From NCBI RefSeq assembly GCF_019793435.1, contig NZ_JAILYH010000018.1, positions 1-64,000 on the forward strand: a stretch of 64,000 nucleotides of DNA, in the 5' to 3' direction. The translations under genes were made by a program, and so were the position numbers. Positions 34,315-52,006 of this stretch are shown here, piece after piece. The DNA comes from Rhizobium redzepovicii (GTDB lineage Bacteria > Pseudomonadota > Alphaproteobacteria > Rhizobiales > Rhizobiaceae). The notes below the pieces were generated by a model. The model was not told the DNA's origin. It worked only from the letters and a program-made list of their open reading frames with translations, and did not search any database. Numbering within the stretch: the first letter of the stretch is position 1; every line of letters starts with the position of its first letter.

Positions 34315-34926
34315 ATGCTCGATACCGCGATGATACAAAAATGCGCCGATCCCTCACTGACGCCTGCCATTGTCGAGCAGTTCGTCCAGAGGGCTGGCTC
34401 CTCGGACCCGTTGGCGGTTACCGTCAAAGCCGGTGAGCGGCTGATCCTCGTCCCGAAGGTGAAAACGCCGGACGAGGCGATGGAGCTTATCCGTAGATAT
34501 GTCGGCCAGGCCGTGGTCCGCGTCGGGATCACCCAGGTCCCGGCTGGCATCGGCGTCAAGGATGTCTCTGAGCTCAAGTCTGATCTTCTACAGGCTTGTG
34601 AAAATCTGCGCCTCGGAACGGGGATGTTCGCCAAAGTGGTGAGGATCGTCGCCAAGTGGTACGGCAATCCCACCGACAGGCAAGTCTTTCCGCAAATATT
34701 CGAGGATGCCGTCTATGCCTGGAAGACCGGCGAGTTCGAGGGCGTGAGCGTGTTTCGGGCCGATGATCCCGGCTTATCTGTGAAATTGACCGTCCCACCC
34801 GTGGCCGAACAAGACCCCCACACCGATAGCGCGCCACCCTTTTCGAAGCTCAAGGAGAGCGAGAATAGCGGTGGTGTCGGAGCAGCGGAAATGCGGATCG
34901 ATCTGTCCCGGATTGGCGCTAAATAA
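34315..34926 (+). CDS. traH: TraH conjugation protein
   Basis: A 203-residue protein in the last position of the traAFBH operon, 15 nt after traB, with GGGAGG upstream of the ATG. It includes MIQKCADPSLTPAIVEQFVQ, RYVGQAVVRVGITQVPAGIG and ENLRLGTGMFAKVVRIVAKW, which fits TraH of pTi-type plasmids. Its role in transfer is accessory and not well defined. The C-terminal 40 residues are low complexity. Confidence 0.88.
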   Translation: MLDTAMIQKCADPSLTPAIVEQFVQRAGSSDPLAVTVKAGERLILVPKVKTPDEAMELIRRYVGQAVVRVGITQVPAGIGVKDVSELKSDLLQACENLRLGTGMFAKVVRIVAKWYGNPTDRQVFPQIFEDAVYAWKTGEFEGVSVFRADDPGLSVKLTVPPVAEQDPHTDSAPPFSKLKESENSGGVGAAEMRIDLSRIGAK

Positions 34927-34940
34927 GCTTTGGAAAGCGT

Positions 34941-35318
34941 CTAGGTTTCCGGCAGCAGATAGCGCGTCAGAACGGCGGTATCCTCTTCGATGGTCACTTC
35001 CAGCACCTCGTTGACGAGATATTGCACCCCTGCCAGTTCCCGCAGAATAAGAATAAACAGTTCCCGTTGAAGCGCAGGTAGGACTTGCGGCACGATAATC
35101 ACGAGACCCGCGTGTAGCTGTTCGTTGGCGTGGAGCTTGCGAAAGTCGCGAGCGTTGTTCGTCACGAAGGTGAAATCTTCCGCGTCGATCCGAGGCATCA
35201 GGTCCCAGTCGGTCTCGCCGCTTAACCCCAACCAGTTGACATGAAAACAATCGTGGCCGTGGTCTTGAGCCACGGCCACGAGTGATGTGTGGAGGCATTC
35301 GTCGATCAGAAATTTCAA
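34941..35318 (-). CDS. PIN-like toxin (DUF5615 family)
   Basis: A 125-residue protein starting MKFLIDECLHTSLVAVAQDH, with DFTFVTNNARDFRKLH in the middle. The conserved acidic residues (D6 and E7 in the first strand, then a D in NNARD) fit the PIN-like nuclease fold of the DUF5615 family. It is encoded 5 nt downstream of a DUF433-type antitoxin, so the pair forms a type II toxin-antitoxin module likely to help plasmid maintenance. Toxic activity is inferred from the family. Confidence 0.82.
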   Translation of the reverse strand: MKFLIDECLHTSLVAVAQDHGHDCFHVNWLGLSGETDWDLMPRIDAEDFTFVTNNARDFRKLHANEQLHAGLVIIVPQVLPALQRELFILILRELAGVQYLVNEVLEVTIEEDTAVLTRYLLPET

Positions 35319-35323
35319 GAGGA

Positions 35324-35953
35324 CTAATCCGACGATTGTGGAAGGCGCTCATTTCCGAGCCGAAGACGCTTTTCCGACTTCACCTTCAAGCCCAGCTCCG
35401 AAAGTTTGCGTGGCCGTCCCCGAACGGGATGTGCTGCTGTCCAGATGTCAGCAAGCTCCACCATTCGGCCCGTCAGCGAAGGATAGCCTTCGACGATTTC
35501 CTCGGTGCTCGCGCCTTGGGCCTTCATCGCGGCGATTGTTCGCACGGGAACGCGGGTTCCCTTAAAAACCGGTTCGCCGCCGACAACCCCTTTGACGCTC
35601 TGGATCAATTTTTCAGCCTCTCGAAGCGCCTCGGCGCGCGCGGCCAATTGCTCTCTTGCCCGCGCGACGTCGATGATAAGGTAATCGTCGGCCCTTACGG
35701 TATCGGCTCCGGGGTTCTCATCGATGGTATCGAACAGTCGTTTACGGCGCTCGGCAGATAGGATCGATCCAACGCCGTACCAGAGCTTCAAGCGAAGCAG
35801 ATCCTCTTCGGTGAGGGCTCGGCCCTCGGTGCTGGACGGACGATTGGCGACGATCCGCTTGTCGATCGCGTTGTGCACCGACTTTATCGCAATCTCGCTG
35901 ACAGCGGCGGCCTCGGCAGGCGTGTAGGCGTGTGAGACAGTGACCATAATCAT
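35324..35953 (-). CDS. DUF433-family antitoxin
   Basis: A 209-residue protein. The N-terminal half has a helix-turn-helix-like segment (AYTPAEAAAVSEIAIKSVHN) and the C-terminal part is a DUF433 domain (GEPVFKGTRVPVRTIAAMKA, IVEGYPSLTGRMVELADIW). DUF433 proteins pair with DUF5615 PIN-like toxins. The gene precedes the toxin gene with 5 nt between them, the usual antitoxin-first order. It probably also represses its own promoter. Confidence 0.85.
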   Translation of the reverse strand: MIMVTVSHAYTPAEAAAVSEIAIKSVHNAIDKRIVANRPSSTEGRALTEEDLLRLKLWYGVGSILSAERRKRLFDTIDENPGADTVRADDYLIIDVARAREQLAARAEALREAEKLIQSVKGVVGGEPVFKGTRVPVRTIAAMKAQGASTEEIVEGYPSLTGRMVELADIWTAAHPVRGRPRKLSELGLKVKSEKRLRLGNERLPQSSD

Positions 35954-36432: not shown

Positions 36433-37476
36433 ATGGGAACAAAGCAAAGCCGGATTCTCCTTTCGGCGATCATGACAGCGATCCTGTCCACCCCTTTGCG
36501 AGCAGAAACGCTCGTGGTCAACAGCTACGGCGGCCCCTACGAGGAGATCATAGAACAAGCGATTATCGAACCGTTCGAGGCCAAGTTCGGTATCGATGTC
36601 ATTTATGATCCAGTCGGCTCGGCGTCGCAGGACTATGCGAAAATCAAGGCGACCGGGGGCCGACCGGAGTTCGATGTCGTCGTCATGACCGCTTCGCAGT
36701 CGCTGCAGGGCTGCCGTGACGGCGTGCTGGAGAAACTTGACGCGGCTGCGATCCCGAACCTTGCCAAACTCATGCCGAGATTGTCAGCCGCGGCCGGTCC
36801 CTGCGGTGCGGTGCACGAAGTGCAGTACATGTCGCTCCTCTACCGGAAGGACAAGCTTGCCACGCCGTCGTCCTGGTCGGCGCTCCTCGCCCCCGAGCTG
36901 AAGGGGAGGATCGTGCTGCCGACGTTTCAAAACATCATGGCCATCTACCTCGTGGAGATGATGTCCGTGATCAATGGTGGCGACCTTGTCGACAATCTCG
37001 ATCCGGGATTCAAGGCGATGGAAGCCGTCGCCAGGCAATCCATCGGATTCGAACAGTCATCTGCCATTCTCGAAAGCTACATCAAGGACGGCACGGTCTG
37101 GGCCATGCCTTTCTGGAACGGCCGCGCTCAACTCCTCGTCGATGCCGGCTTACCGGTTGACTACATCCGTCCCAAGGAAGGCACCATTCCCCTCATCGCC
37201 ACGCTCAACGTGCCCGTGGGTGCGCAAAACAAGCAATCGGCCATGAAGTTCATCGATTTCTTCTTGGAAAAGACAAGTCAGGAAGCCTGGATCGGCGGCT
37301 ATAAGGTCGGGAGCGCGCGAACCGACGTAGAGGTCCCGGAGGCGATTCGCGCGCGGCAGATCACCTCGGAAGCTGACCTTGAGACCCTGCTCCTTCCGGA
37401 CCTGTCGCTCGTCGCCGAGCGCCTGCCGCGCTGGGCCGAGCAGTGGGACCGCGATGTCGTTCCCCAGGCAGACTGA
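36433..37476 (+). CDS. Polyamine-type ABC importer, substrate-binding protein
   Basis: A 347-residue exported binding protein of the spermidine/putrescine (PotD/PotF, SBP_bac) type. After a signal peptide (RILLSAIMTAILSTPLRAE) come TLVVNSYGGPYEEIIEQAI, FDVVVMTASQ, and YMSLLYRKDKLATPSSWSAL. Many such importers in rhizobia carry small organic nitrogen compounds other than polyamines, so the ligand is unknown. It opens an operon with two permeases and an ATPase, followed by six enzyme genes. The start at 36433 has only a weak ribosome binding site. Confidence 0.85.
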   Translation: MGTKQSRILLSAIMTAILSTPLRAETLVVNSYGGPYEEIIEQAIIEPFEAKFGIDVIYDPVGSASQDYAKIKATGGRPEFDVVVMTASQSLQGCRDGVLEKLDAAAIPNLAKLMPRLSAAAGPCGAVHEVQYMSLLYRKDKLATPSSWSALLAPELKGRIVLPTFQNIMAIYLVEMMSVINGGDLVDNLDPGFKAMEAVARQSIGFEQSSAILESYIKDGTVWAMPFWNGRAQLLVDAGLPVDYIRPKEGTIPLIATLNVPVGAQNKQSAMKFIDFFLEKTSQEAWIGGYKVGSARTDVEVPEAIRARQITSEADLETLLLPDLSLVAERLPRWAEQWDRDVVPQAD

Positions 37477-37485
37477 GAGATCGCG

Positions 37486-38385
37486 ATGAACACCATCACA
37501 GTTGCGGTTCCGGCGGCGTCTCTTTCTCCAATCCGAAGATCCTACAGTTTTATGGCTTTGACGCCAGCTGCCCTATTCCTGAGCGTCTTCTTCGCGCTTC
37601 CGATGGGAATGATGATCGGCATCAGCTTTTCACAAGAGGAGGTCGGTGGATTTTCCGTCGAGAGCTACCGACGGTTTTTCACCGATGGGCTTTCGGTTGC
37701 AGGATTCTGTCGCACGGCCGTCATGTCCGGACTGGTCGCGATCGCGGTTACCGTGCTGGGGTATCCGGTCGCCTATTTTCTGGCTCGTTCCAGAAGCCGG
37801 TGGCGCGCTCTCGTCTTTGCCCTTGCGCTTGCACCGGAACTTGCGGGCGTGGTGCTGCGGACCTACGGATGGCTGATCATTCTGGAAGACCGCGGCTTCA
37901 TCAACGATGTTCTCCTTGACCTCGGTCTCATTTCGTCGCCGCTTCCGCTTTCGAAGAATCTCTTTGCGGTCGTGGTCGGCCTGACGCACGTCGTGTTGCC
38001 GTTCGGCATTCTCTCGCTGATGACGAGCATTCAGGGCATCGACGAAAGTCTGGAGCGCGCGGCTCAGATGCTCGGAGCCTCGCGCGTCTCCGTCGTCCGC
38101 CACGTCATCGTCCCGCTTTCCGTTCCGGGACTTGTCAGCTCGCTGCTGCTTTCGTTCACCATGGCCGCGAGCGCCTACGCGACACCCGCACTCCTTGGCG
38201 GCGCCGGTTTCAAAGTCCTGGCGACGATGATCTCCGAGCAGGTCCTCTTCTACGTCGACTGGCCCTTTGCCGCCGTCATGGCCAACGCGCTTCTCCTTCT
38301 GATGCTGGTGATCTCGTTCGTTGGCGTGCGGTTTGAAGCGCGGCACCGTACCAAACGAAGCGGCGCCGGGGGGGCCACGTCATGA
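37486..38385 (+). CDS. ABC transporter permease, PotB/PotH type
   Basis: An inner-membrane permease of 299 residues with six or more hydrophobic segments (SFMALTPAALFLSVFFALPM at the start) and the coupling-loop EAA region (ERAAQMLGASRVSVVRHVIV). It follows the binding-protein gene by 9 nt and overlaps the next permease by ATGA, so the two permeases form the heterodimeric channel. Confidence 0.9.
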   Translation: MNTITVAVPAASLSPIRRSYSFMALTPAALFLSVFFALPMGMMIGISFSQEEVGGFSVESYRRFFTDGLSVAGFCRTAVMSGLVAIAVTVLGYPVAYFLARSRSRWRALVFALALAPELAGVVLRTYGWLIILEDRGFINDVLLDLGLISSPLPLSKNLFAVVVGLTHVVLPFGILSLMTSIQGIDESLERAAQMLGASRVSVVRHVIVPLSVPGLVSSLLLSFTMAASAYATPALLGGAGFKVLATMISEQVLFYVDWPFAAVMANALLLLMLVISFVGVRFEARHRTKRSGAGGATS

Positions 38386-39185
38386 ACTGGCTACTCTCGG
38401 TCCTCTTCCGGCTCATGCTAGCCGGCGTCCTCACCTTCATCACGCTGCCACTTGCCGTCGTAATAGCGGCCTCATTCAGCCCGACCTCCGCAGTCACGTT
38501 CCGGCCGTGGGAGTGGACGGCGCGGTGGTACGGCGACCTTGTCTCGGAGCGCTGGCTTCTGCCCTTTCTGCTCAGCGTCAAGATTGCGGTGATCGTCTCT
38601 ATCGTCAGCGGCATCATCGGCGTCATGGCAGCCTATGCCGTCTTCTATGAAAAGATACGTGGCAGTGAGGCGGCGATGTCGGCGCTTCTCTCGCCGCTGT
38701 CGGTGCCGCAGATCGTCAAAGGCGTCGCGATCGTCCTATTCCTGTCACTTGTCGGGCTGCAGTCCTTCCTTGGCACGCCTGCGCTCATCGCCGCCCACAT
38801 CGTCCTCGCCCTACCCTTCGTCGTGAGAATGGTGGCGACGTCTATTGCGAACTTCGACCGCAATCTGGATCGGGCGGGTCAGATCCTGGGGGCGAACAAG
38901 CGTCAGCGGGTGCAGTACATTCTTTTGCCAGCGATCAGGCCTGGTGTGCTGTCAGGCATGACCTTCGCCTTCATCATCTCCTTCAATAACATTCCGCTGT
39001 CGGTGTTCCTGGTTCGACCAGGCGATACGACGCTGCCGATCACCGTCATCAACTACCTCGAATACAGCCTCGATCCGGTGATGGCGGCAGTCAATGTCGC
39101 GTCGATGATTTTCATCCTCGCGGTGATCTTCCTTTTTGAAAAGATCGGCGGATTTTCCGTCAAACTCCATGGTGGCAGCAAATGA
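38382..39185 (+). CDS. ABC transporter permease, PotC/PotI type
   Basis: A second permease of 267 residues with typical hydrophobic segments (LMLAGVLTFITLPLAVVIAA) and the EAA-like loop (DRAGQILGANKRQRVQYILL). Overlaps at both ends (ATGA with the upstream permease and ATGA with the ATPase) show translational coupling of the importer genes. Confidence 0.9.
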   Translation: MNWLLSVLFRLMLAGVLTFITLPLAVVIAASFSPTSAVTFRPWEWTARWYGDLVSERWLLPFLLSVKIAVIVSIVSGIIGVMAAYAVFYEKIRGSEAAMSALLSPLSVPQIVKGVAIVLFLSLVGLQSFLGTPALIAAHIVLALPFVVRMVATSIANFDRNLDRAGQILGANKRQRVQYILLPAIRPGVLSGMTFAFIISFNNIPLSVFLVRPGDTTLPITVINYLEYSLDPVMAAVNVASMIFILAVIFLFEKIGGFSVKLHGGSK

Positions 39186-40270
39186 GCAGCGTCGATATTG
39201 AACTCGTCTCCGTCAGCAAGTCCTTCGGGGCGGTCTCCGTCGTGAAGGACATTAGCCTGCAGATCCCGCAGGGTGAGTTCGTCAGTATTCTCGGACCTTC
39301 CGGCTGCGGGAAGACGACAACGCTCAACATGATCGCCGGCTTCAACCAGCCGTCGGTCGGCGATATCAGGATCCGCGGGAGGAGCCAGGGCCGCATTCCA
39401 CCAGAACGGCGAAATATCGGCTTGGTGTTTCAGAACTACGCGCTCTTTCCGCACATGACGGTCGCCGACAACGTCGGCTTCGGCCTCAAGATGAAAGGCA
39501 CGGCGAGATCGGAGATCGAGACGAGCGTGGCATCGGCACTGCGAAGTGTTCATCTTGACGACTACGGCGCGCGCTATCCGAGGGAATTGTCGGGCGGACA
39601 ACAGCAACGCGTGGCACTGGCGCGTGCCATCGCGCCACGCCCATCCGTCCTGCTCCTCGACGAGCCGCTCTCGAATCTCGATCTGAAGCTTCGAGAGGCC
39701 ATGCGGCTCGAACTCAAGGAGCTCCAGCAGCAGCTCGGCATGACGTTCGTCTACGTGACGCACGACCAGGAAGAAGCGATGGCGATGTCCGACCGGATCG
39801 TGGTGATGTGGCAGGGGGTCATTGCCCAAACGGGCGGGCCCGCTTCGATCTACCGTCATCCGGCGAGCTCATTCGTGGCGGATTTCATCGGGAAATCGAA
39901 CATCCTCACCATCGAAGGGACGAGCGAGCAGGAAACCACCCTCGACCTTCACCTGTCCGGGAGCGCGATCAGCTTGCGGGCAAAGCGCCCGCCGAACCGT
40001 CAGCAAGCCCGCTTCTGCTGCATCCGGCCCGAAGACATCGCGGTGCTGAACAACACTGGTGACGCCGGCGGGTGCAGCGTCAATCGTCTGTCCGGAACCG
40101 TGCGCCGAGTCATCAACCTCGGTCCGTCGCTGGAGCTCGCGGTCGAGATCGATCCGCATGTCGTCTTGACGGTGCTAACACGCTCATCGCTGTCGGCCTC
40201 ACTTCCGGTTATGGGCGACGTCGTCGCGCTTTCCATCGACCCGGACGACATCCAGGTCCTGCCGGAATAG
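39182..40270 (+). CDS. ABC transporter ATPase, PotA/PotG type
   Basis: A 362-residue ATPase. Walker A is GPSGCGKTT, the signature is LSGGQQQRVALARA, Walker B is VLLLDEPLSNLD, and the His switch is VTHDQEEAM. A C-terminal TOBE regulatory domain follows (FCCIRPEDIAVL). It powers the importer encoded by the three preceding genes. A gap of 120 bp separates it from the enzyme genes. Confidence 0.93.
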   Translation: MSSVDIELVSVSKSFGAVSVVKDISLQIPQGEFVSILGPSGCGKTTTLNMIAGFNQPSVGDIRIRGRSQGRIPPERRNIGLVFQNYALFPHMTVADNVGFGLKMKGTARSEIETSVASALRSVHLDDYGARYPRELSGGQQQRVALARAIAPRPSVLLLDEPLSNLDLKLREAMRLELKELQQQLGMTFVYVTHDQEEAMAMSDRIVVMWQGVIAQTGGPASIYRHPASSFVADFIGKSNILTIEGTSEQETTLDLHLSGSAISLRAKRPPNRQQARFCCIRPEDIAVLNNTGDAGGCSVNRLSGTVRRVINLGPSLELAVEIDPHVVLTVLTRSSLSASLPVMGDVVALSIDPDDIQVLPE

Positions 40271-40390
40271 CCGATGGCGATCGATACGCCACGCCTATCA
40301 ATCCGATCCAATCGATATTGGCGATGCTTCCCTCGCCCGCCCTACGATCATCGCGACCTTAGAGGAAGGTCAGCAACAGGAGTTTTAGGA

Positions 40391-41257
40391 ATGCTCACCA
40401 AAATCAGGCTTCGCGCCGTTCAGCATGCCAGCAATGTCTGCGGCGATATCGAGGGTTTCGACTTCAATGACTATGACGCCGACGACATCGCCGCGGTGCG
40501 AAAGTTCTGGCTGCAATATGGCGTCGTCCGTTTCAAGAAGGCGGGCATCACCGACGCCCAGCAGGTGCAGTTCTCGCATCACTTCGGCGAGTTCGTCATC
40601 CATCCCAAGCAGCTGCAGGAAGGCGGGCATCCGACCCACCCGGAAATCCTGGTCATCAGCAATGCGATGAAGGACGGCAAGCCAAGCGGCGCGATGGGCA
40701 ATAGCGAGGCGACGTGGCACACCGATACGTGGTTCTACGAACGCCCGCCGGCGGGCGCGATCCTGCGTGCCGTCGCTGTTCCGCCTTCAGGCGGCGACAC
40801 CTATTTCCTCTCGACCTATATCGCTTACGACACGCTACCGGCGCCTCTCAAGAACGCCGTCGATGGGCGCCAGATCTTCTTCCAGAACGTCTACGACAAG
40901 ACGGGCAAACTCAGACTTGGCAAGTCCACGCCGAAAAGCCAGGACTTCCGCGAATGGAGCGGCATCGTGCATCCGTTGGTGCGCACACATGGTGAGACCG
41001 GCCGCAAGGCACTTTACCTCGGTGGAACGACGGAAGGCGCTTGGATCGTTGGCATGAGCCGCGATGAGAGCGACGCGCTGCTCGCCGAACTGTGGGATCA
41101 CACGACGAACACGAAGCATATCTTCGTGCAGCAATGGGATGAGGGCGACATCATGATGTGGGACAATCGTTGCACCATGCACCGCCGCGACTCCTTCGAT
41201 CCCGCGTCGATCCGGATCATGCATCGCACCACCACTTCCGGCGAGCGGCCGGTCTGA
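40391..41257 (+). CDS. TauD/TfdA-family 2-oxoglutarate-dependent dioxygenase
   Basis: A 288-residue Fe(II)/2-oxoglutarate oxygenase. The iron-binding HxD lies in WHTDTWFYERP and the distal His and 2-oxoglutarate-binding Arg in the C-terminal MWDNRCTMHRRDSFDP and RIMHRTT. Enzymes of this family hydroxylate next to heteroatoms and release sulfite, phenols, amines or similar groups (taurine, 2,4-D, choline-like substrates). The start at 40391 has AGGAG 8 nt upstream. As the first enzyme after the importer it probably attacks the imported compound. The substrate cannot be told from sequence. Confidence 0.9.
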   Translation: MLTKIRLRAVQHASNVCGDIEGFDFNDYDADDIAAVRKFWLQYGVVRFKKAGITDAQQVQFSHHFGEFVIHPKQLQEGGHPTHPEILVISNAMKDGKPSGAMGNSEATWHTDTWFYERPPAGAILRAVAVPPSGGDTYFLSTYIAYDTLPAPLKNAVDGRQIFFQNVYDKTGKLRLGKSTPKSQDFREWSGIVHPLVRTHGETGRKALYLGGTTEGAWIVGMSRDESDALLAELWDHTTNTKHIFVQQWDEGDIMMWDNRCTMHRRDSFDPASIRIMHRTTTSGERPV

Positions 41258-41298
41258 GCCGATCAGGCACCACTGACCGAACAGAGAAAGCCCAATCG

Positions 41299-41952
41299 AT
41301 GACAGCGTTCTATCAGATGATCGACAGAAGCCCTCCCCTGCCCGCTGACCTGATCGAGCGACTGTCATTGGTTGATACGGCGACCATCGGCCATGTCGAG
41401 CACCTGGGATTTGTCGGCGGTGATATCCGACCCCTATTTCCTGCCCGCGTGGCCGGTGCCGCCTTCACCGTCGCCGCTCCCGGCCGTGACGGCGTCATCA
41501 TCTACAAGGCGATCGATCTCCTGTTGCCCGGTGACATCCTGGTGATCTCGCGCGTCGATCGCGACGACATCGCCTGCGTCGGTGGCGGTGTTGTTGCCGC
41601 CGCAAAGGCCAAGGGGGCTGCGGGCATCGTCATCGATGGTCCGTGCACGGATGTCGATGAGATCATCGCCACCGGCGTTCCCGTGTGGTGTCGCGGCGTC
41701 TCCGCCAAAACCACGAACCGCCAGTTTCAGATTGGCGGCTCGCTCAATGTTCCAATTGCCTGCGGCGTGGCCGCGGTTCTGCCTGGCTATGGGGTGCTTG
41801 CCGACAATGAAGGTGTGTTCGTGGCCGATCGCGACCGCATGCGGATCCTCGCTGACGCGGCATTGGAGCGCCAGAAGCGCTCGGTGGCTGTCCGGTGTCA
41901 TTTGGCCTCCGGCCGGTCGATCTTCGATTTTGACAAGGAGCCGAGGTCTTGA
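41299..41952 (+). CDS. RraA-like / HMG-aldolase family protein
   Basis: A 217-residue protein of the RraA/dimethylmenaquinone-methyltransferase-like family: VDTATIGHVEHLGF, GRDGVIIYKAIDLLLPGDIL, GGGVVAAAKAKGAAGIVIDG. Catalytic family members are class II aldolases (4-hydroxy-4-methyl-2-oxoglutarate or 4-carboxy-4-hydroxy-2-oxoadipate aldolase) or oxaloacetate decarboxylases, using a metal held near an Arg-Asp pair. Here that site reads DGPCTDVDE, so the Asp is kept but the Arg is replaced. It might cleave or decarboxylate an intermediate, or have changed function. Confidence 0.8.
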   Translation: MTAFYQMIDRSPPLPADLIERLSLVDTATIGHVEHLGFVGGDIRPLFPARVAGAAFTVAAPGRDGVIIYKAIDLLLPGDILVISRVDRDDIACVGGGVVAAAKAKGAAGIVIDGPCTDVDEIIATGVPVWCRGVSAKTTNRQFQIGGSLNVPIACGVAAVLPGYGVLADNEGVFVADRDRMRILADAALERQKRSVAVRCHLASGRSIFDFDKEPRS

Positions 41953-42812
41953 AAATCGCCCTCGTTCAAATGAGTTCGCAGCCCGATCGTGCCCATAATC
42001 TTGCCGAAGCCGCGCGACTGATGCGCGAGGCTATGATCGGCAGACCCGACCTGATCGTGCTGCCGGAACATTTCGACTGGCTTGGCGGGACGGTCGCGGA
42101 CAAGAGGCGCGCGGCGGACCGCGTACCAGGTGGCGAAGCATATGACCTCGTTCAGCAGTTCGCAAAGGATAACGCTGTCTGGGTCCATGCCGGTAGCCTG
42201 ATGGAGCGCCGCGGCCAGGATCACCGTGTTTACAACACCACCGTGGTGTTCAACGCCACGGGCGAGCAGGTCGGCCTCTACCGAAAGATCCACCTCTTCG
42301 ACATTACCGCACCCGATGGAAAGACCTATTCCGAGTCTGCCGCGGTGGCGCCGGGGCGCGACCTGTTCATCTATGAACTCGACGGCCATCGGATCGGCTG
42401 TGTAATCTGCTACGACCTTCGTTTTTCGCGCCTGTTCGATCGCCTCGCGGAGGAAGAGGTCGATATCTTCGTCCTGCCCGCCGCTTTCACCCAGCAGACC
42501 GGGCAGGCTCATTGGGAGGTGCTGTGTCGGGCACGCGCGATCGAATTCCAAGCCTATTTCGCGGCCTGCGGACAGTGCGGAAGCTATGCGATGCCGGACG
42601 GAGAGCTCCGCCGGACCTTCGGTCATTCCATGGTGTGCGATCCGTGGGGGCAGATTGTCGCGCGCGCCGAAAACGACGTCTGCGTGCTTGTGGCGGAAAT
42701 CGACCCCGCTCGACTGCCTGAGGTTCGGCGCCTGATCCCGATGGCCGAGCACCGCGTTTTGCTCGCGGATAGGCAGGTTCGCCTGTCCCCTGGGACCAAG
42801 CCAAGGCGTTGA
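41949..42812 (+). CDS. Nitrilase-superfamily carbon-nitrogen hydrolase
   Basis: A 287-residue hydrolase with the full catalytic triad: Glu in LPEHFDW, Lys in YRKIHLFD and Cys in VICYDLRFSRLF. This resembles the omega-amidase/Nit branch, which hydrolyses small amides to acids and ammonia. A TTG start at 41949 overlaps the previous stop (TTGA), with GAGG just upstream, so translation is coupled. The presence of an amidase implies that the pathway intermediate is an amide or similar C-N compound. Confidence 0.9.
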   Translation: MKIALVQMSSQPDRAHNLAEAARLMREAMIGRPDLIVLPEHFDWLGGTVADKRRAADRVPGGEAYDLVQQFAKDNAVWVHAGSLMERRGQDHRVYNTTVVFNATGEQVGLYRKIHLFDITAPDGKTYSESAAVAPGRDLFIYELDGHRIGCVICYDLRFSRLFDRLAEEEVDIFVLPAAFTQQTGQAHWEVLCRARAIEFQAYFAACGQCGSYAMPDGELRRTFGHSMVCDPWGQIVARAENDVCVLVAEIDPARLPEVRRLIPMAEHRVLLADRQVRLSPGTKPRR

Positions 42813-42817
42813 GATAT

Positions 42818-43017
42818 CATCCCTGCCGCGGCTCGTCGATGCGGCCAAATTCGACGTGACCGACCTCGAGCGCCCGGGCCAGTTCGTGGAACATCACGAT
42901 CGTTGGATAGCGCTTTCCTCTTTCCAGATCGCTCAAAGACTGCTGGCTGAAGCCTGGCCGCGGGCCGACCAGCTCCGGCGGACGTGCCTCCTCCGTCGCC
43001 GAAACTTTGCCTTCTCT
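42818..43017 (-). pseudogene. Remnant of an XRE-family (Cro/CI-type) HTH regulator
   Basis: Read on the minus strand, the 200 bp give FSQQSLSDLERGKRYPTIVM followed by FHELARALEVGHVEF and a stop at 42818-42820. This is the recognition-helix half of a helix-turn-helix domain, with the hallmark LSxLERGKRxPT motif. There is no start codon in frame: an in-frame stop lies at 43018-43020 and the first helices are missing or frameshifted. It lies antisense in the 295-bp gap before the ornithine-cyclodeaminase-like gene. It is probably a decayed regulator of this cluster. Confidence 0.5.
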
Positions 43018-43107
43018 TTATCGACAATGCGGAAGCTTGATCTAGCGGCCCGCAGGCAGGTGCTAGGTTCTGCCTCGAGGAACGACGTCTTGTCGTTGGA
43101 GGAAACA

Positions 43108-44172
43108 ATGTTCGACACTAGCACGGACGGCGATGTCCGCTTTCTCACCCGCCAGGATTTGCAGTCGGCTGGCGCGGAGCTCACGATCGCGGAAATCCAT
43201 GCAGCCATAGATGCTGCATGGGCGGATATCAACAGCGGGCTGGCTTTCGGGGGAAAGGCCGTCCTCTCGCTTCCAGAGGAGGAGTTCTGGCAGCGGGAGA
43301 GCGTCGCCCCATTCAGGCGCGACTTCGTCGACGAGCGCCTCGGCTGGAAGCTGTCGGCTCTCTATTGCGTCAATCCGACCCATGGCGGCGTCAAGATCAT
43401 CGGCGCAAACGCCTTCAATCGGCATCTTGGCCTGCCTCGCTCGACGTCGACTGTCGTCCTTTTGGAAAAACGGACGCTTCGGCCCTTGGCGATACTCGAC
43501 GGGACGGCGATTTCCGCGCTGAGAACGGGCACCTATGCGTCGAAGGTGGCTCAGCTGTTTGTTCGCAGCCAGGCACCTGTATCGGGCTTCATTTTCGGAT
43601 CGGGACCCGTCGCCCGAAGTGTGGTCGAATGCCTGAACCTCGCCTGTTCCGACTTGATTGGAGACATCTTCATCCGCAGCCGATCGATTGAAGGCGTGGA
43701 AAGACTTCTGTCGGACTTCGCCGATCGGACATCTTTTCGGCTTCACGCCGTAACCGACAACCAAAGGCTGAAGGAATGCGCCCTGCTGATTACCGCCACG
43801 AATGCCCGCCAGCCGCTGTTTGAGGACGAGGAGTTGAACAGGGATGCGGTGACGCTTCATCTTGGCGGAGACGAAGTGCCCGAAACCTATCTGCAGCGAG
43901 CCTTGAAAAGCGGGACCGTCGTCTGTGACGACATCCAGACGGTCTCGCGCAGAAACTCGCAAAGCATTGCCCTCCACTTCTCCCGAAAAGGGCTTTCTCT
44001 GGAGGAGATCGGTCCGTTGCTTGGCGTGCGGGAGCTCTCTGCGCCGATCGACTGGGTCCGAGAGGCGGACACGCCGGTTTGCGTAACCTGCGTCGGCCTG
44101 CCGATGCTCGACCTTTATGCCGTGCAAGCGACCTATGAGAAATACCTCGCTCGCACGCAGGAAAATGCCTGA
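43108..44172 (+). CDS. Ornithine cyclodeaminase / mu-crystallin family protein
   Basis: A 354-residue NAD(P)-dependent protein of the OCD family. It has the substrate-side segment GTAISALRTGTYASKVAQLF and the Rossmann motif GFIFGSGPVARS. Relatives include ornithine cyclodeaminase, alanine dehydrogenase, and imine reductases that act on cyclic imines or N-substituted amino acids (opine-like chemistry). The ATG at 43108 is well supported by GGAGG 6 nt upstream. In this operon it suggests that an imine or amino-acid intermediate is oxidised, reduced or deaminated. Confidence 0.88.
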   Translation: MFDTSTDGDVRFLTRQDLQSAGAELTIAEIHAAIDAAWADINSGLAFGGKAVLSLPEEEFWQRESVAPFRRDFVDERLGWKLSALYCVNPTHGGVKIIGANAFNRHLGLPRSTSTVVLLEKRTLRPLAILDGTAISALRTGTYASKVAQLFVRSQAPVSGFIFGSGPVARSVVECLNLACSDLIGDIFIRSRSIEGVERLLSDFADRTSFRLHAVTDNQRLKECALLITATNARQPLFEDEELNRDAVTLHLGGDEVPETYLQRALKSGTVVCDDIQTVSRRNSQSIALHFSRKGLSLEEIGPLLGVRELSAPIDWVREADTPVCVTCVGLPMLDLYAVQATYEKYLARTQENA

Positions 44173-44187
44173 AGGGCTGTCCGAGCG

Positions 44188-45549
44188 ATGAATACGCCCA
44201 CAAATTCCATGTACACCACGCACCTCCTCGCCGAGCACGTCCATTCGCTCTCCTCAGCTCCGCCTGCGGTCGGCACTCGTGACACTGCCTTGCGCTGTAT
44301 TCTCGATCTTGTCGGGGCGGCGGTTGCTGGTTCCGCCCTTCAGTGCAGTCGTGCGGCCCGTGATAGCGCTGCCGCGCTCTTCGGCAAAGGCGAGGCGGCC
44401 ATTTGGATGACGGATCGGACAGTGATGCCCATCGCGGCCGTGATCGCCAACGCGACCGCGGCGTCGGCGCTCGACCTGGACGACGGACACCGCGCAGCGC
44501 GAGGACATCCGGGCGCCTGCGTTGTTCCAACCGTCTTGACGTTAGCGCCGTTTGCCAGCGTCTCGGCCGATGACGTCCTGTCGGCAATCGTTTCGGGCTA
44601 TGATGTCGGCGTCAGAGTGGCGGCGGCCCAAAATGCCCAAGGAATTCAGACCCGGCAGTCGGGACGGTGGGCCGCTTTGGCCGCGGTTGCGGCAGCGGCG
44701 TCACTCTTCAAGGTCGAGCCGCCATTGATCGCGCAGGCGCTTTCGATCGCAGGCGTGCTTGCCCCCAACCAACAGGCCAATGGAAGTTCGGGCTACTCCC
44801 GGCTCACAGGCAATGACGTCAAGGAAGGGATTCCCTGGAGTGCCGCCACCGGTCTCATGGCTCTCGACCTCGCCCGCAAAGGCTATACTGGGCCGGAAGA
44901 TCTGCTCGATCATCCCGGCTACTACGACAGGCAGAGGATACTGGAAGGACTGGGGCAGCGTTTTGAAATTTGCGGCACCTATTTCAAGCCTTATGCCTGT
45001 TGCCGCTATATACACCCGGCGCTCGATCGCCTCTTCGATCTTGTGAAGGTTCACGAACTGAGGGCCGCGGACATTGTCTCGGTGGAGGTAGAGACCTTTG
45101 GCTGGGCGCTCAAGCTCGGCAACGTGCTTTCGCCCGCGAACCTTGTCGACATTCAATATAGTCTTCCCTATTGCGTCGCCATTGCAGCGATCGATGGCCG
45201 CGGCGCCCTTGCTCCCGTCAGCGACAGCCTTCTTCATCGGCGGGACCTCACTGAACTCGCGCGACAGGTGAAGATCACCGTCAATCCCGAGATCGACGCG
45301 CTCTTTCCCGCCGAGACGCTGGCGAAGGTGACTGTCGAGACACGACGGCACAAGTACGTCTCGGTACTGGATGGCCCCACCGGCGATCCCCAGCGTCCGA
45401 TGGACTGGCACGCGATCGAAGAGAAGTTTTTGCGCGTCACGCGGCATGTCCTGTCGCCTTCCAAGCAAGAGGCGATCATCGATGGCGTTCTCGGCCTCGC
45501 GGGTGGAGAGCTAGACCCATTTCTACGGCTTCTGCGCTTTCCAGGGTAG
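44188..45549 (+). CDS. MmgE/PrpD family protein
   Basis: A 453-residue protein of the MmgE/PrpD family, which includes 2-methylcitrate dehydratase, cis-aconitate decarboxylase and iminodisuccinate epimerase. Typical segments are ALDLDDGHRAARGHPGACVV, YDVGVRVAAAQN and FKPYACCRYIHPALD. The first of these carries the Asp and His expected in the active site. It follows the OCD gene by 15 nt and ends the plus-strand operon. The known members act on substituted di- and tricarboxylates, which fits a pathway that feeds the TCA cycle. Confidence 0.88.
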   Translation: MNTPTNSMYTTHLLAEHVHSLSSAPPAVGTRDTALRCILDLVGAAVAGSALQCSRAARDSAAALFGKGEAAIWMTDRTVMPIAAVIANATAASALDLDDGHRAARGHPGACVVPTVLTLAPFASVSADDVLSAIVSGYDVGVRVAAAQNAQGIQTRQSGRWAALAAVAAAASLFKVEPPLIAQALSIAGVLAPNQQANGSSGYSRLTGNDVKEGIPWSAATGLMALDLARKGYTGPEDLLDHPGYYDRQRILEGLGQRFEICGTYFKPYACCRYIHPALDRLFDLVKVHELRAADIVSVEVETFGWALKLGNVLSPANLVDIQYSLPYCVAIAAIDGRGALAPVSDSLLHRRDLTELARQVKITVNPEIDALFPAETLAKVTVETRRHKYVSVLDGPTGDPQRPMDWHAIEEKFLRVTRHVLSPSKQEAIIDGVLGLAGGELDPFLRLLRFPG

Positions 45550-45685
45550 GACACGGTACCGAACCAATGCCGGCCACTATCCTTGCCGGCAGATGAAACT
45601 GACGCAATGACGGGCATCGCCTCGGGCGGTCGACACCTTATTGCGCACGCTGTCAGGGCCGCCGAGGTCGGCGTCCTACGCCCCG
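45550..45685. other. Short convergent intergenic region
   Basis: Separates the plus-strand operon from the amidohydrolase gene read from the other strand. I see no clear hairpin terminator and no gene. Confidence 0.35.
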
Positions 45686-47080
45686 CTAACGGCGCTCTCC
45701 CATGGCGTAAGCGTGCAAATCCCCAACCCCCATCGCCCCGTTGAACATCACAAGCTGCCCGTTTGCCACGACATGGCGGACACGACCGAGATTGTGGGTC
45801 TCAACGATGACCACGTCGGCGCGTTTGCCCTTTTCCAGCAAGCCACGATCGGCCGCAAGCTCCGGGAATGTTTTCGAGACGTTGCCGGTCGCAAGCGCGA
45901 TCGCGGCCGGCAGCAAAAGCTGGCTCTTTCGCACCATTCGCTGTATGGCCGATAGTATACTGTCCCAGTCGCCACCGGCAAAATCCGTCGATAGGGTATC
46001 GACGAGCCCCGCTTCGACCAGAGCATCGATATTTGCGGTGTCGTTGCGCCAGCGTGTTTCGATGCAATCGAGCGTCGAGACGTCGATTGTGACGCCGCGC
46101 CCCCTCAGTTGCTGGCCGAAACGCACTGCCTCTTGGGGAAGGAACATCGGGTGGTTCGAATGCCCGGCGATGATGCGGGCCTTTGGATATGTCTCCGCAA
46201 GCTTGAGCAGTGTCGCCGCGGTGGGTGCCGCATTGTGAAAGATTGCCGGAAAATCGAGGCGTTCAGACGCTGCCGCGATCTCGTCAAAACCCTTCAGTGA
46301 CAGCGCCACGGGTGGCATCACCGTGTCGCGGATCAGCTTTATGAGGTCGGACGCGCCAATCTTAGCGGCGAGACCGCATTCGATCAGAAGAGCATTGAGC
46401 CGCGGAAGATCGGGAAAGCCACGATCGAGATAGCGGCCGAGAACGGCTTCCTTGAGTGCGCGCGCCTCTTTCGGATGGATTGATATTCCGGTAGCGGCCT
46501 CGATAGCTGCGGGTATGAAGCGATAGTCCTGTGCCCCGCCACCGAGCGTCTGCCCGCCGCCTGCTTCTCCGAGTGCCTTTGCACCTTTGTCGACCATGTC
46601 ATCGATGCGCGCGATCTTGTGCCGCTTCGATAATCCGCCGCCATCAATCGCGATCGCCGCAGCCAGATTGCTCGCGGTATGCGCCGTCGTCAGATGGATA
46701 TCCATCGCATGGCGTCGGTTCGAGGGGCCATTGATCTCGTCCGGCAGCGCCAGGCCGCAGACGTTGAGCAGGGTTGTTGTCCCGGAGAGGAGATGTCTGT
46801 TTCTGAAGTAGTCGACATCCGTGGCCCGGAGGGGCACCGACCCGCTCGGCATGGACGGACCGTGGATGCACCCATGAGCATGCGCATTGACGATACCGGG
46901 AATGACCGTGCATCCGGTGGCGTTGAGGACGATAGCCTCGCTTCCGGCATCAGCCTCACCCCGAGCGACGTCGATGATTGTTGTCCCACGGATGCGCACG
47001 ACCCCACGGTCGTGGAGCGTCGTTCCATCGCCGGTGACAATTCGTCCGCCGACGATGACGATTTGAGTGTCAGGGGGCAT
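45686..47080 (-). CDS. Amidohydrolase-family protein
   Basis: A 464-residue metal-dependent hydrolase. It has the HxH motif in IPGIVNAHAHG, a later His in AGHSNHP, the Asp in LSTDFAGGDW, and the small N- and C-terminal beta domain typical of the imidazolonepropionase/dihydroorotase-like group (GKRADVVIVE). Such enzymes open cyclic amides, deaminate or hydrolyse. The ATG at 47080 has AGAGG 9 nt upstream. It overlaps the upstream response-regulator gene by 11 bp, so regulator and enzyme are co-translated. It probably belongs to the same pathway as the converging enzymes. Confidence 0.88.
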   Translation of the reverse strand: MPPDTQIVIVGGRIVTGDGTTLHDRGVVRIRGTTIIDVARGEADAGSEAIVLNATGCTVIPGIVNAHAHGCIHGPSMPSGSVPLRATDVDYFRNRHLLSGTTTLLNVCGLALPDEINGPSNRRHAMDIHLTTAHTASNLAAAIAIDGGGLSKRHKIARIDDMVDKGAKALGEAGGGQTLGGGAQDYRFIPAAIEAATGISIHPKEARALKEAVLGRYLDRGFPDLPRLNALLIECGLAAKIGASDLIKLIRDTVMPPVALSLKGFDEIAAASERLDFPAIFHNAAPTAATLLKLAETYPKARIIAGHSNHPMFLPQEAVRFGQQLRGRGVTIDVSTLDCIETRWRNDTANIDALVEAGLVDTLSTDFAGGDWDSILSAIQRMVRKSQLLLPAAIALATGNVSKTFPELAADRGLLEKGKRADVVIVETHNLGRVRHVVANGQLVMFNGAMGVGDLHAYAMGERR

Positions 47081-47780
47081 TCGACGGGACCTCTGTTTCC
47101 GACCAGCCGGTTGCCACCAGTCCATAGCCGACACCGCGAACCGTCCTGATCGGATCGGTGGGCGCGACCGCCGCCAAGGTCTCACGCAGCCGACCAATGT
47201 GAACGGTGATGGTTTTTGGATCGACGAAGACACCTGCCGGCCAGGCCGCCGACGCGAGCTCATGCCTCAGATAGATGCGCCCAGGATCTTTGAGCAGATG
47301 CAGCAGAATGGCGAACTCCAGACGCGGGAGGTGCAACTCGACGCCCCGCCTCCAGACCCGCCGCGCCAGCACATGCATTTCGATGTCGCCGCACGATAAT
47401 CGCTCCTGCGAAGCGCCTGACTGTGATGAAAGCGAGTTCAATGCGCGCAGGAGGTGGTCCGGGGAAATGGGCCGCACGAAGCTTTCGTCGGCGCCGGCAT
47501 TGAGGAAATCGGCATATTGCCGGGCGGAGTTGGCCTCGACCAGCGCGATGACCTTCAGTCCTGCCGTCGTCGCATCGCCTTTCAAGCTTCCGCAGGCGGA
47601 AACCGAATTCGCCACCCTGCCATCGATCACGACGCCCCGCACTCCGGCGGTCCTTGCCGCGGCGATCGCCTCGTTCGCGCTGGTCGTCAGGAGCGTCTCA
47701 AAGCCGGTCTGCCGAAGTATATGGCGGGCAAACAGGCAGAAATCCGCGTCCGTTGAACCGATGACAATGGTCGGCTTCAC
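47070..47780 (-). CDS. OmpR-family response regulator with degenerate receiver
   Basis: The C-terminal winged helix is well conserved (LPRLEFAILLHLLKDPGRIY, TITVHIGRLRETL, TVRGVGYGL). The receiver keeps a central Asp (GVVIDGRVANS), but the N-terminal acidic pocket reads VIGSTDAD, the Thr/Ser switch reads ALVEAN, and the invariant Lys is Arg (SFVRPIS). Normal phospho-switching is doubtful. I favour GTG 47780 (VKPTIVIG); the frame allows ATG 47828. It overlaps the amidohydrolase start and is the likely regulator of this cluster. Confidence 0.8.
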   Translation of the reverse strand: MKPTIVIGSTDADFCLFARHILRQTGFETLLTTSANEAIAAARTAGVRGVVIDGRVANSVSACGSLKGDATTAGLKVIALVEANSARQYADFLNAGADESFVRPISPDHLLRALNSLSSQSGASQERLSCGDIEMHVLARRVWRRGVELHLPRLEFAILLHLLKDPGRIYLRHELASAAWPAGVFVDPKTITVHIGRLRETLAAVAPTDPIRTVRGVGYGLVATGWSETEVPSNAP

Positions 47781-47828
47781 TGGGCTTTCACCGAGGGTTG
47801 TGCGGAGCGTGAGGCCGTACGATCCCAC

Positions 47829-48440
47829 GGTGTCTGAGGAAATTCAAATGCTGTCTGCGCCTTACGTATTAAGATTTATGTCCCGCGTTCCGCGCTGTTT
47901 CAGGCCGATTGATCGTGATTTCGCATGGATGCCGTTCGAGCAGAATTGGAAAGCCCAGGCGAACGCGCGCATCCTCTTTCCATCAGCGACAATCGGAGAT
48001 GAACATGAGTGTGGCGCGATCGGTCAGCATGAGGAGCTTGGATGATGCTTCTCCTTCACCGTCGAATGGCCCGCCCTCCCCGCGAGCAGGCGTCAGCGGC
48101 TCTGCCTGTCTTGACTGCGTTGCCTGCCGGCGGCGTCTTTCGGGGAATTGTCCGGTGCGCGCACTCCCAGAGCAGGAACTGTCACGGGCGGGCTCGGCTG
48201 GCGATTGACGAGGTCAGATCGCGTCATTGACGTCTGAAACACGCCTGTTGCCATCCTCGGCCTATGAGACGAGGCATGTCAATGCCCGCAGAATTGCAGG
48301 TTGGCATCGGGAAGCCAACCTGCGATTTGTTCAGCATCGGCGACGTCAACGCACGTTGCCGATAGCGCGCCAGCAAACCGTGGACGGCGGGAGTGGGATC
48401 GGGCACCGGGAAGCCGCATCGAGAGAAGAAAACGGAGATC
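47829..48440. other. 600-bp divergent region between two response-regulator genes
   Basis: No convincing gene; overlapping frames on the plus strand give low-complexity Arg/Ser-rich products. It must hold the promoters of the two divergently read regulator genes. No clear repeat or operator is seen. Confidence 0.35.
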
Positions 48441-49136
48441 ATGATCGCGGCTGCAGGCGGGGACGTCGGGCAGACGCTAGCGGACGCGGTCATCCACGAG
48501 GGCATGATGGCTACGACTGTCACTTTCGGTGCGCGGGCGCGTGCCCTCACCGGCAGGCACCGGTTTGATCTGATGATCCTCGATGCCGTCGTCCGGCCCG
48601 AAGATGCGCTTCATCTGTGCCGGCAAATCCGTACCCTCAGCACGATCCCGATCATCGCGGTCGTTGCGCAAGGGCGTGAGGACATCATCCTTGCCGCTTT
48701 CGAAAGCGGAGCTGATGATTGCGTCTCCAGTCCCTTCGGGACGAGGGAAATGATTGCCAGGATCCGCAGCGTGTTGCGACGGGCATCGCATGATCGCGCG
48801 ATGCACAGCCTGCCAAAGCCTTTCCGATTCAATGGGTGGCGCCTCGACACATGGCAACGCACGTTGCAGCGACCGGATGGGGCCGTGGTTAACGTGACGG
48901 CGGCCGAGTTCGACCTGCTCGTTGTCTTTTGTCAAAACCCCGGCAGGATACTCAGCCGGGAAGAATTGCTTAGCTCTACTCACGCAGGTCTGGCGGGTCC
49001 CATTGAACGGAGCATCGACGTTCACATCAGCCGATTGCGACACAAGATCGAGGACAATCCCCACAACCCAAGCCTCGTCAAGACCGTGCGGATGGGCGGC
49101 TATTTCTTTGCCGCGGTTGTTGAAACCGATGGATAG
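48441..49136 (+). CDS. OmpR-family response regulator with degenerate receiver (2)
   Basis: The winged-helix output domain is intact (VTAAEFDLLVVFCQNPGRIL, SIDVHISRLRHKIE, TVRMGGYFF) and resembles that of the regulator at 9241. The receiver retains the phospho-acceptor position (LMILDAVVRPED) but has GG in place of the acidic pair (AAAGGDVGQ), Ala instead of Thr (AVVAQG) and Ser instead of Lys (VSSPFG). It is probably controlled without phosphorylation. The ATG at 48441 is the natural domain start; the frame is open to 48393. It sits upstream of traR in the same direction. Confidence 0.82.
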   Translation: MIAAAGGDVGQTLADAVIHEGMMATTVTFGARARALTGRHRFDLMILDAVVRPEDALHLCRQIRTLSTIPIIAVVAQGREDIILAAFESGADDCVSSPFGTREMIARIRSVLRRASHDRAMHSLPKPFRFNGWRLDTWQRTLQRPDGAVVNVTAAEFDLLVVFCQNPGRILSREELLSSTHAGLAGPIERSIDVHISRLRHKIEDNPHNPSLVKTVRMGGYFFAAVVETDG

Positions 49137-49542
49137 CAAGCCGTAGCGGGGGTGTGAGCGCGGCTCTGTGAACGAGCTGAATTTGCGCGAACGTTTGAGT
49201 CTGCGACGCCTGGAGCCAATACCCTGCGTCGCCGAGCGCAGCGCCCGCGCCTGATCGTCAAGTGCGCCGCACGAAATGAGTGCCCGGAAGATATCCCACG
49301 GGGGCCGCAAGCTCGTCGCGGCCTCCTTGGGGCGCGAGAGAGCGACAATATTAAGTTTTGTTGCTCGGGGCGCCAACAGGTTGAAGGACATTTGTGACAC
49401 ATCTAAACCGATCAGCGCGGACGCCACGCAAACGCGTGCAGTTTGAGTTTAAAAATCACCAAGGGAGATCCTTATCGCTGAACGGCCATCGCCGATGCGT
49501 CGCCCGGGTCGCCAGCCAGATTTCCAGGGAGCAAGTGGTCCC
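49137..49542. other. Upstream region of traR
   Basis: No gene is supported. The region must hold the traR promoter. A long minus-strand frame here is antisense to the regulator gene and looks spurious. Confidence 0.35.
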
Positions 49543-51558: not shown

Positions 51559-51571
51559 CCCCTCCCCTCCC

Positions 51572-52006
51572 CTAATTGCGCCTGACGGAGACGGGGCTGG
51601 CCGGCGATGCGCCGGTCGCGCTTGTGGCATAAGCCCGCGCGAGTTCAACCGAACCTGCCGATATCGAAACAAGCGCCTGGCCTTCAAGGTCGTCTACGCC
51701 ATAGGTTAGGGCAACCATGCGCTTCTTCTCGTCGATCCCCTGCGCCGTCACGACCTCATAGCCCCACGCCTTCAGGGCAGCTTCAATGGCTTGCCCGAAG
51801 GGCGTGGCGTCCCCATTCCATTTGACCCTGTTGATCCCCGGGTCGACCTGTTCTGCAAGCCGACCGACCATATCGCCTGCGATCGCGCTGGCGGCAGGGT
51901 CGGAGAGGTCTGGCGAGGCTGAGGTGGCGGTAGGGCCGTCCGCGGCGGTCGTGCAGCCTGACAGCAGGCACCCGATGAAAGAAAGTAGGAGGCTTCGCAT
52001 GGTCAC
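51572..52006 (-). CDS. trbH: TrbH, outer-membrane lipoprotein of the mating channel
   Basis: A 144-residue protein with a lipoprotein signal ([13 protein letters not shown], lipobox LSGC). Conserved parts include [13 protein letters not shown] and [17 protein letters not shown]. TrbH is the VirB7-like or accessory lipoprotein of the Trb system. It overlaps the end of trbG by ATGA and precedes trbI by 13 nt. Confidence 0.9.

Follow-up and report, generated by a model that had tools for sequence, protein, structure and literature searches.

A putative opine-class metabolic island within the conjugation region of a rhizobial repABC plasmid

The stretch analysed here, 64,000 nucleotides of Rhizobium redzepovicii DNA (contig NZ_JAILYH010000018.1; hereafter the window), belongs to a conjugative plasmid of the repABC type. 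Embedded in its conjugation region, between traAFBH and the trb operon, is a cluster of importer, enzyme and regulator genes, which we interpret, with a probability of about 0.6, as a metabolic island of the opine class that is integrated into conjugation under quorum control. The succinamopine/leucinopine class is pointed to because the ornithine cyclodeaminase (OCD)-family enzyme, the importer and the MmgE/PrpD protein (MmgE) of the cluster each have relatives among such opine genes. That opine use and plasmid transfer are coupled is textbook knowledge for one special case, the Ti plasmids. Here, relatives of an opine synthase, of an opine-region importer and of opine-linked enzymes sit in the quorum-sensing (QS) core of non-Ti rhizobial conjugative plasmids. 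The link to the conjugation region, the TraR gene and trbI was absent from the preliminary description of this DNA, which reported an importer-plus-enzyme cluster for a nitrogen-containing compound.

Modular structure and linkage to quorum sensing and conjugation

The cluster is real and conserved. In a megablast search with the 11.5-kb cluster, 35 plasmid records matched; in 14, at least 80% of its length was present in one place, with 85–99.9% DNA identity. A search for the gene order in other genomes, the check named in the preliminary description, thus recovered the whole cluster in 14 plasmid records and its order in further loci, with protein identities per gene from about 33% (RR1) to 88% (TauD), which places the gene set beyond chance.

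Two separable modules were observed. Module 1, on the plus strand, comprises genes for an SBP_bac_8/PotD-like periplasmic binding protein (SBP, 36433–37476), a PotB-like and a PotC-like ABC permease (37486–38385 and 38382–39185), a PotA-like ABC ATPase (39182–40270), a TauD-family Fe(II)/2-oxoglutarate dioxygenase (40391–41257), an RraA/aldolase-like protein (41299–41952) and a Nit2-like amidase of the nitrilase superfamily (Nit, 41949–42812). Module 2 consists of the genes for the OCD-family NAD(P)-type enzyme (43108–44172, plus strand), MmgE (44188–45549, plus strand), an amidohydrolase (AHY, 45686–47080, minus strand) and the atypical, Msi287-like OmpR/PhoB-type regulator RR1 (47070–47780, minus strand). 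Genes, order and strands are as previously described, including the converging amidohydrolase and OmpR-type regulator. The spacing had been called mostly overlapping or short; this holds for most plus-strand gaps (−4 to 41 bp) and fails before TauD (120 bp) and before OCD, where a 295-bp gap divides the gene set. MmgE and the convergent AHY are 136 bp apart. Gene starts were taken from pRSpC104e, a 99.9%-identical plasmid of Rhizobium sp. C104, wherever its annotation lists the gene; SBP and the second permease are missing from that gene table, and longer open reading frames are upstream extensions. The minus strand of the gap between Nit and OCD (42812–43010) encodes an XRE-like peptide for which no clear ATG start is seen, and relatives of the cluster have small helix-turn-helix genes in this gap.

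The division into modules is based on a set of MmgE relatives from GTDB species genomes (79 loci; the best 80 of 118 matches were kept), in which cluster genes and transfer genes were mapped within the sequence fetched around each locus. OCD and AHY were both present in 30 loci, OCD without AHY in three, and neither in 46. RR1 accompanied all 30 OCD- and AHY-containing loci and a second OmpR-type regulator, RR2, 20 of them. In eight of the 30, SBP, TauD, RraA and Nit were not in the fetched sequence, while OCD, MmgE, AHY and RR1 were, which separates the two modules and makes module 2 the part tied to the transfer genes. The cluster, treated as one unit before, is therefore better described as two, and a published acylhomoserine lactone (AHL)-induced block discussed below likewise begins after the genes of module 1.

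Linkage to QS and conjugation genes was pronounced. A LuxR-/LuxI-type gene was found in 27 of the 30 loci, a tra/trb gene in 24 and either of them in 28; no such gene was present around any of the 49 MmgE loci without AHY (three with and 46 without OCD). At one of the two exceptions (L017) the contig ends 173 bp beyond RR1, and the other (L004) has RR2, but the 6.5 kb past RR1 hold neither a QS nor a transfer gene. Fisher's test gave 2e-19, a figure that is not a probability, as the loci share descent. When AHY was searched in 394 Rhizobiaceae genomes, 154 had some match; among the matches listed, ten genomes (the source genome included) were at 57–100% identity and one at 38%, the remainder being short, weak stretches. 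All nine other genomes with AHY at 57% identity or above carry OCD, MmgE and RR1 as well as a TraR, TraI or LuxR/LuxI-type gene beyond RR1; six of the nine may coincide with loci of the 79-locus set. The linkage of module 2 holds across at least four different arrangements beyond RR1: RR2-traR-trbI; traI directly upstream of RR1 on the same strand, followed by traA; traR followed by traG-traA, or by a second traR and trbI; and a cinR-cinI-cinX-like set.

Expression data on homologous genes are available for plasmid pAtP4, which carries a cinR-cinI-cinX set and on which, according to the available sections of Mhedbi-Hajri et al. (2016; PMC4992315), 32 genes are more highly expressed in the wild type than in a cinI mutant. 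In the block 285182–294410, cinR, cinI, cinX, "sus", "msi250", AGROTU_05920 and "msi287" lose expression in the mutant. AGROTU_05920 is described as "metal-dependent hydrolase domain", with its induction confirmed by quantitative reverse transcription PCR (RT-qPCR), and "msi287" as "phosphate regulatory protein"; the metabolic genes of the block are given without interpretation in these sections, and the QS system had no fitness effect in the tomato rhizosphere. On plasmid pAt2788a of A. fabrum (L082), LuxR, LuxI and LuxR genes come after the cluster. Both printed AGROTU_05920 primers match inside the AHY gene of pAt2788a, on opposite strands and with one mismatch each, and AGROTU_05920 is thus taken as an AHY homologue. 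The distance from the end of cinI to the end of the block on pAtP4 is 707 bp, as is that from the end of luxI to the end of the second LuxR gene on pAt2788a. When the coordinates are mapped on pAt2788a, the block starts at about the start of an extra MmgE gene, and the importer, TauD, RraA and Nit genes fall outside it. From position and name, "sus" would correspond to the gene for the OCD and "msi250" to one for an MmgE protein. Msi287 has been described as a PhoB/FixJ/MtrA-like regulator downstream of nif genes on symbiosis integrative and conjugative elements of Mesorhizobium (available sections of PMC9973854); this description fits RR1, whose best NCBIfam hit is PhoB (below the cut-off). 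In the sections seen, co-expression is in print just for homologues of module 2, and no evidence against co-expression was found. The extra MmgE/PrpD gene between Nit and OCD lies at 6396–7790 of the pAt2788a stretch and is present in 13 further aligned loci; it was not found in the cluster of the window.

The linkage could also have been inherited with the plasmid backbone and carry no regulatory meaning, the cluster then being an ordinary catabolic passenger for another nitrogen compound, polyamine- or lactam-like, in an insertion-tolerant tra–trb slot. Most loci belong to Rhizobiaceae and are related by descent, so that 28 of 30 are not 28 independent events, and the slot is also occupied by a DUF5615 (PIN-like)/DUF433 gene pair (34941–35953, between traH and the importer), presumably toxin–antitoxin-like. 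The importer ATPase, alone among the importer proteins, passes a Pot-family cut-off. Against a mere passenger, module 2 keeps its neighbours in at least four conjugation/QS arrangements, and AHL induction of the AHY homologue on pAtP4 was confirmed by RT-qPCR. In addition, opine genes are reached independently from the importer, from the OCD and from MmgE, and on other rhizobial plasmids, transfer was found to be affected by hypothetical genes located in this slot (available sections of PMC9601222). We therefore regard a passenger as unlikely and favour the opine-class island under quorum control.

Relatives among opine genes

The OCD protein was compared with plasmid-encoded proteins by tblastn. 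Among the 60 of 87 records listed, OCD proteins of homologous clusters were 43–100% identical, followed by a Roseibium protein (41%) and by genes of Agrobacterium and R. rhizogenes plasmids (30–37%), which are annotated as hypothetical. On pTiBo542 and pTiChry5, the relative follows ipt and a RolB-family gene, and on the Ti plasmid of strain C16/80 it adjoins RolB-family genes. The pTiBo542 and pTiChry5 proteins belong to the OCD family, with the same OCD/mu-crystallin domain as the OCD of the window. The latter aligns over its full length with the pTiBo542 T-DNA protein (31% identity, 5e-44), with CDD..RN and FSRKG..L.EIGP..GV as shared blocks. In a maximum-likelihood tree of 20 sequences, three Ti-plasmid genes group with the cluster OCDs (support 97/98), and the outgroups are an Arthrobacter OCD and two paralogues from the source genome; the paralogue reading frames cover the family match. 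The gene les, renamed susL, is reported to make L,L-succinamopine/leucinopine in tumours induced by Bo542 and Chry5 strains (available sections of PMC6733357), and in other Ti plasmids les is placed together with 4' and 6b (available sections of PMC10410297). The OCD retains the GxGPxA nucleotide motif and the aligned family positions K96, R139 and D255. Altogether, the OCD is related to a T-DNA gene that is assigned by position to leucinopine/succinamopine synthesis, and an opine-forming or opine-cleaving activity is predicted for the OCD.

The importer leads to the same class of plasmids. Among the 60 of 466 plasmid records listed, SBP relatives were 64–98% identical, then 50% on Ti plasmids, then 33% at most. 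In a Ti plasmid stretch (L131), four importer genes precede an MmgE gene and trbI; the identities to the importer of the window are 50% (SBP), 60% (PotB-like), 62% (PotC-like) and 59% (ATPase). By description, this importer stretch corresponds to AgrTiEU6_34–38 of the succinamopine plasmid pTiEU6 (available sections of PMC6733357). It is this second importer of L131, not the ABC genes on its sac side, that matches the importer of the cluster.

MmgE possesses both MmgE/PrpD domains, and its nearest solved relative is iminodisuccinate (IDS) epimerase (structure 2hp0, E-value 2e-18, a similarity that does not fix the reaction). The substrate of this epimerase is, by its name, an opine-like secondary amine. 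The MmgE of L131 is 30% identical to the extra MmgE of pAt2788a. Among the 46 MmgE relatives without OCD, several of which are close kin, 25 are accompanied by both DAO-type and Oox-type genes and 12 by a gene of the octopine dehydrogenase (opine dehydrogenase) family. By NCBIfam alone, the oxidases beside MmgE relatives are glycine/sarcosine-oxidase-like; three Oox/DAO proteins of one such locus (L040) are 67–70% identical to those of L131, and an oxidase region of the L131 type has been assigned to succinamopine catabolism in pTiEU6 (available sections of PMC6733357).

Whether the compound is made or degraded is viewed differently from different genes: the T-DNA relatives and a Roseibium plasmid locus favour synthesis, whereas the importer and the hydrolases favour breakdown. 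In the Roseibium locus (L139, 7851–16978), an MFS transporter gene comes after the gene for the OCD relative (41%), and opposite these two lie a trio of oxidase genes and an importer of the Pot type; the locus possibly serves to make, export and reimport an opine. Module 2 might accordingly be biosynthetic, with the plasmid making its own opine-like molecule at quorum by means of the OCD as synthase, the cells exporting, sensing or eating it and module 1 recovering it. Besides the Roseibium gene order, the Ti-plasmid OCD relatives, in T-DNA by position and placed as synthases, would agree with this, as would the AHL induction of module 2 homologues in the pAtP4 study as available and the eight of 30 loci without module 1 nearby. 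No exporter gene is present among the cluster proteins, hydrolytic or catabolic functions predominate in the MmgE and AHY families, and opine synthases/dehydrogenases are reversible, so that homology gives no direction. A biosynthetic module 2 seems quite improbable to us. The same low standing applies to a more specific proposal, namely that the OCD is a quorum-controlled bacterial opine synthase by which donors make a private opine-like compound at high AHL, that old and new plasmid carriers import it via module 1, and that the les/susL T-DNA synthases descend from such genes. If this were true, production of a compound formerly made by plasmids themselves would have been handed over to the plant by the Ti plasmid.

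Predicted functions of the enzymes and regulators

Our preferred reading, an opine-class island under quorum control, predicts substrate, reaction steps and direction (breakdown or synthesis) from homology. The binding protein and ABC importer of module 1 would take up the compound, which the module would help to degrade. TauD, in which HTD and the distal H are conserved in a family alignment (n = 37), may oxidise the carbon next to the nitrogen. The nearest solved relatives of Nit are Nit2 proteins. Nit2 is an omega-amidase for 2-oxo acid amides, and such an amide would be the expected product if an Asn- or Gln-containing opine were cleaved on its amino-acid side; the Nit2-like amidase may therefore remove the terminal amide. 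HMG/CHA aldolases use a catalytic Arg-Asp pair. In the RraA-like protein, the motif is DGPcTD, with Thr in 37 of 37 aligned proteins in place of the aldolase Arg, which renders a final aldol or decarboxylase step doubtful and weakens the C–C cleavage envisaged previously. In module 2, the OCD would form or cleave the secondary amine of the opine with NAD(P)(H), MmgE might epimerise or dehydrate the acidic alpha carbon, and AHY may open a cyclic or amide form. AHY represents a narrow family (66 plasmid records, all from Hyphomicrobiales genera except one from Arthrobacter) with HxH, E172, H282, H307 and D366 invariant in 46 aligned sequences. Its structural model (pLDDT 91.4) matches isoaspartyl dipeptidase, dihydroorotase, enamidase and others at 12–22% identity. 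The 38% AHY relative belongs to a Rhizobiaceae locus (L127) with a cluster of TRAP-transporter genes, and it is oriented divergently from a gene of the octopine dehydrogenase family. The opine-like or lactam nutrient considered in the preliminary description (beside a cyclic imide) is the best-supported part of its interpretation, namely by the OCD, importer and MmgE relatives, with the substrate itself being a prediction. Its statement that the enzyme set matches no known pathway stands: in the open-access literature searched, we found no assigned pathway with the same gene set and no description of the cluster or of its opine affinity (subscription papers were largely outside this search).

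Downstream of the cluster follow RR2 (48393–49136, plus strand), a gene for a TraR-type AHL-dependent activator (49495–50253, plus strand), the trb operon from trbI at its end (50278–51687, minus strand) to the AHL synthase gene traI at its head (59758–60396, minus strand), and repA; upstream are traG/traC and traAFBH, the latter ending with traH (34315–34926, plus strand). The traR gene lies 358 bp behind RR2, and the convergent AHY-RR1 pair separates it from the importer and enzyme genes. Aligned to TraR (1h0m), the TraR-type protein keeps the AHL-binding residues W57, Y61, D70 and W85; its NCBIfam score of 201.9 is below the cut-off of 250. Between traI and repA, two exact TCGCARNNCTGYG sites (60448–60460 and 60534–60546) were detected. 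They are the only ones without mismatch in the window and are candidate TraR sites. A 17-nucleotide inverted repeat with a 2-nucleotide gap and 88% complementarity is located between the divergent genes RR1 and RR2 (48292–48327) and may be an operator or a hairpin.

Canonical receiver domains contain an acidic pair, the Asp, a Thr/Ser and a Lys. The receiver of RR1 keeps Asp53, lacks the acidic pair, the Thr and the Lys, and gives no Pfam receiver hit; judged by these residues, RR1 is not a canonical two-component response regulator, and its receiver possibly binds a ligand or works independently of phosphorylation. A regulator encoded next to nif genes in Sinorhizobium mexicanum shares 41% identity with RR1. 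The region in question (L129, 8920–17322), on a plasmid with nif genes, encodes this RR1/Msi287-like regulator, an AraC protein, an MmgE (29% identical to that of the window), a class III aminotransferase and an amidohydrolase whose similarity to AHY is no more than an end-motif. In the proposed mechanism, module 2 belongs to the QS/conjugation regulon, the window copy presumably being under AHL control, and RR1 and RR2 would help to tie a metabolite or density state to TraR/TraI.

Several observations weigh against this mechanism. Identity is no higher than 23% between the MmgE proteins of the window and of L131 and 31% between the OCD and the T-DNA protein, the OCD tree has very long outgroup branches, and the T-DNA gene is les/susL by position (ipt, RolB family, then the gene), the records calling it hypothetical. 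No flavin opine oxidase/dehydrogenase of the SacEFGH/LecFGH type was found among the ten cluster proteins (the rest of the genome was not searched), and the RraA-like protein has Thr-Asp without the aldolase Arg. The control for the linkage is weakened by 13 of the 46 loci without OCD, which sit on stretches of less than 15 kb, many of the 49 control loci are from distant taxa, and the transfer gene queries were proteins of this window and of pAt2788a, so that distant transfer genes may be missed. According to the available sections on pAtP4, its block names seven genes, where the homologous stretch of pAt2788a holds eight, one of which may not be induced, and the P4 system uses avhB/tra rather than trb. 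RR1 homologues adjoin nif genes in three regions in which no OCD or AHY gene was listed or found (L129 was also searched), and RR1 is thus not specific to the cluster. At the cluster promoters, no near-perfect palindrome of 16–20 bases was present. If the reading is nevertheless correct, plasmid spread in the rhizosphere would draw on opine-type chemistry more widely, beyond tumour-forming bacteria, a bacterial source for the T-DNA opine synthases would be suggested, and it could be tested by which small molecule the transfer of such R. leguminosarum plasmids is controlled.

Comparison with known systems

According to the available sections of two papers, conjugation is already known to be coupled to opines on Ti plasmids and on opine-catabolic plasmids (PMC6341043), and a homologous module to be induced by QS (PMC4992315). 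In the former (occ/TraR of pTiR10; the mannopine system of pAoF64/95), opine genes, traI-trb, tra and TraR are located on a repABC plasmid and linked to conjugation. The plasmid of the window resembles these in combining opine-type metabolism genes, opine-like by homology, with tra, trb, traI and traR on a repABC plasmid. It differs in that traR lies outside the catabolic operon, as is also reported for pAoF64/95, in the adjacent regulators, which are of the OmpR type with a degenerate receiver, in its enzymes, and in that AHL drives the module 2 homologues in pAtP4. The succinamopine region of pTiEU6 (sac genes, AgrTiEU6_20–38; available sections of PMC6733357) likewise has a Pot-type importer and an mmgE gene; in L131, whose gene order fits the pTiEU6 description, the importer is 50–62% identical and trbI is next door. 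Unlike pTiEU6, the cluster proteins of the window include no sac oxidase, oxoprolinase or asparaginase, and TauD, RraA-like, Nit2-like, OCD and AHY proteins are present instead. With les/susL of pTiBo542 and pTiChry5, the window shares an OCD-family protein alignable over its full length; here, however, it is encoded in a bacterial operon with MmgE, whereas les/susL is a plant-expressed T-DNA gene.

RcgA/RcgR, encoded beside traR on group I-C plasmids, do not fit the cluster genes when compared by description only. Msi287, compared by description and unaligned, lies downstream of nif genes, and the RR1 relative of S. mexicanum is also nif-adjacent; unlike Msi287, RR1 forms an operon-like pair with AHY. 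A parallel in regulation is the cinR-cinI-cinX block of pAtP4, where, according to the available sections of PMC4992315, the AHY homologue (by primers), RR1 and probably the OCD and MmgE homologues lie by a LuxR-LuxI-LuxR set and are AHL-induced together with conjugation genes; transfer is of the avhB type there, in contrast to TraR/TraI/trb in the window.

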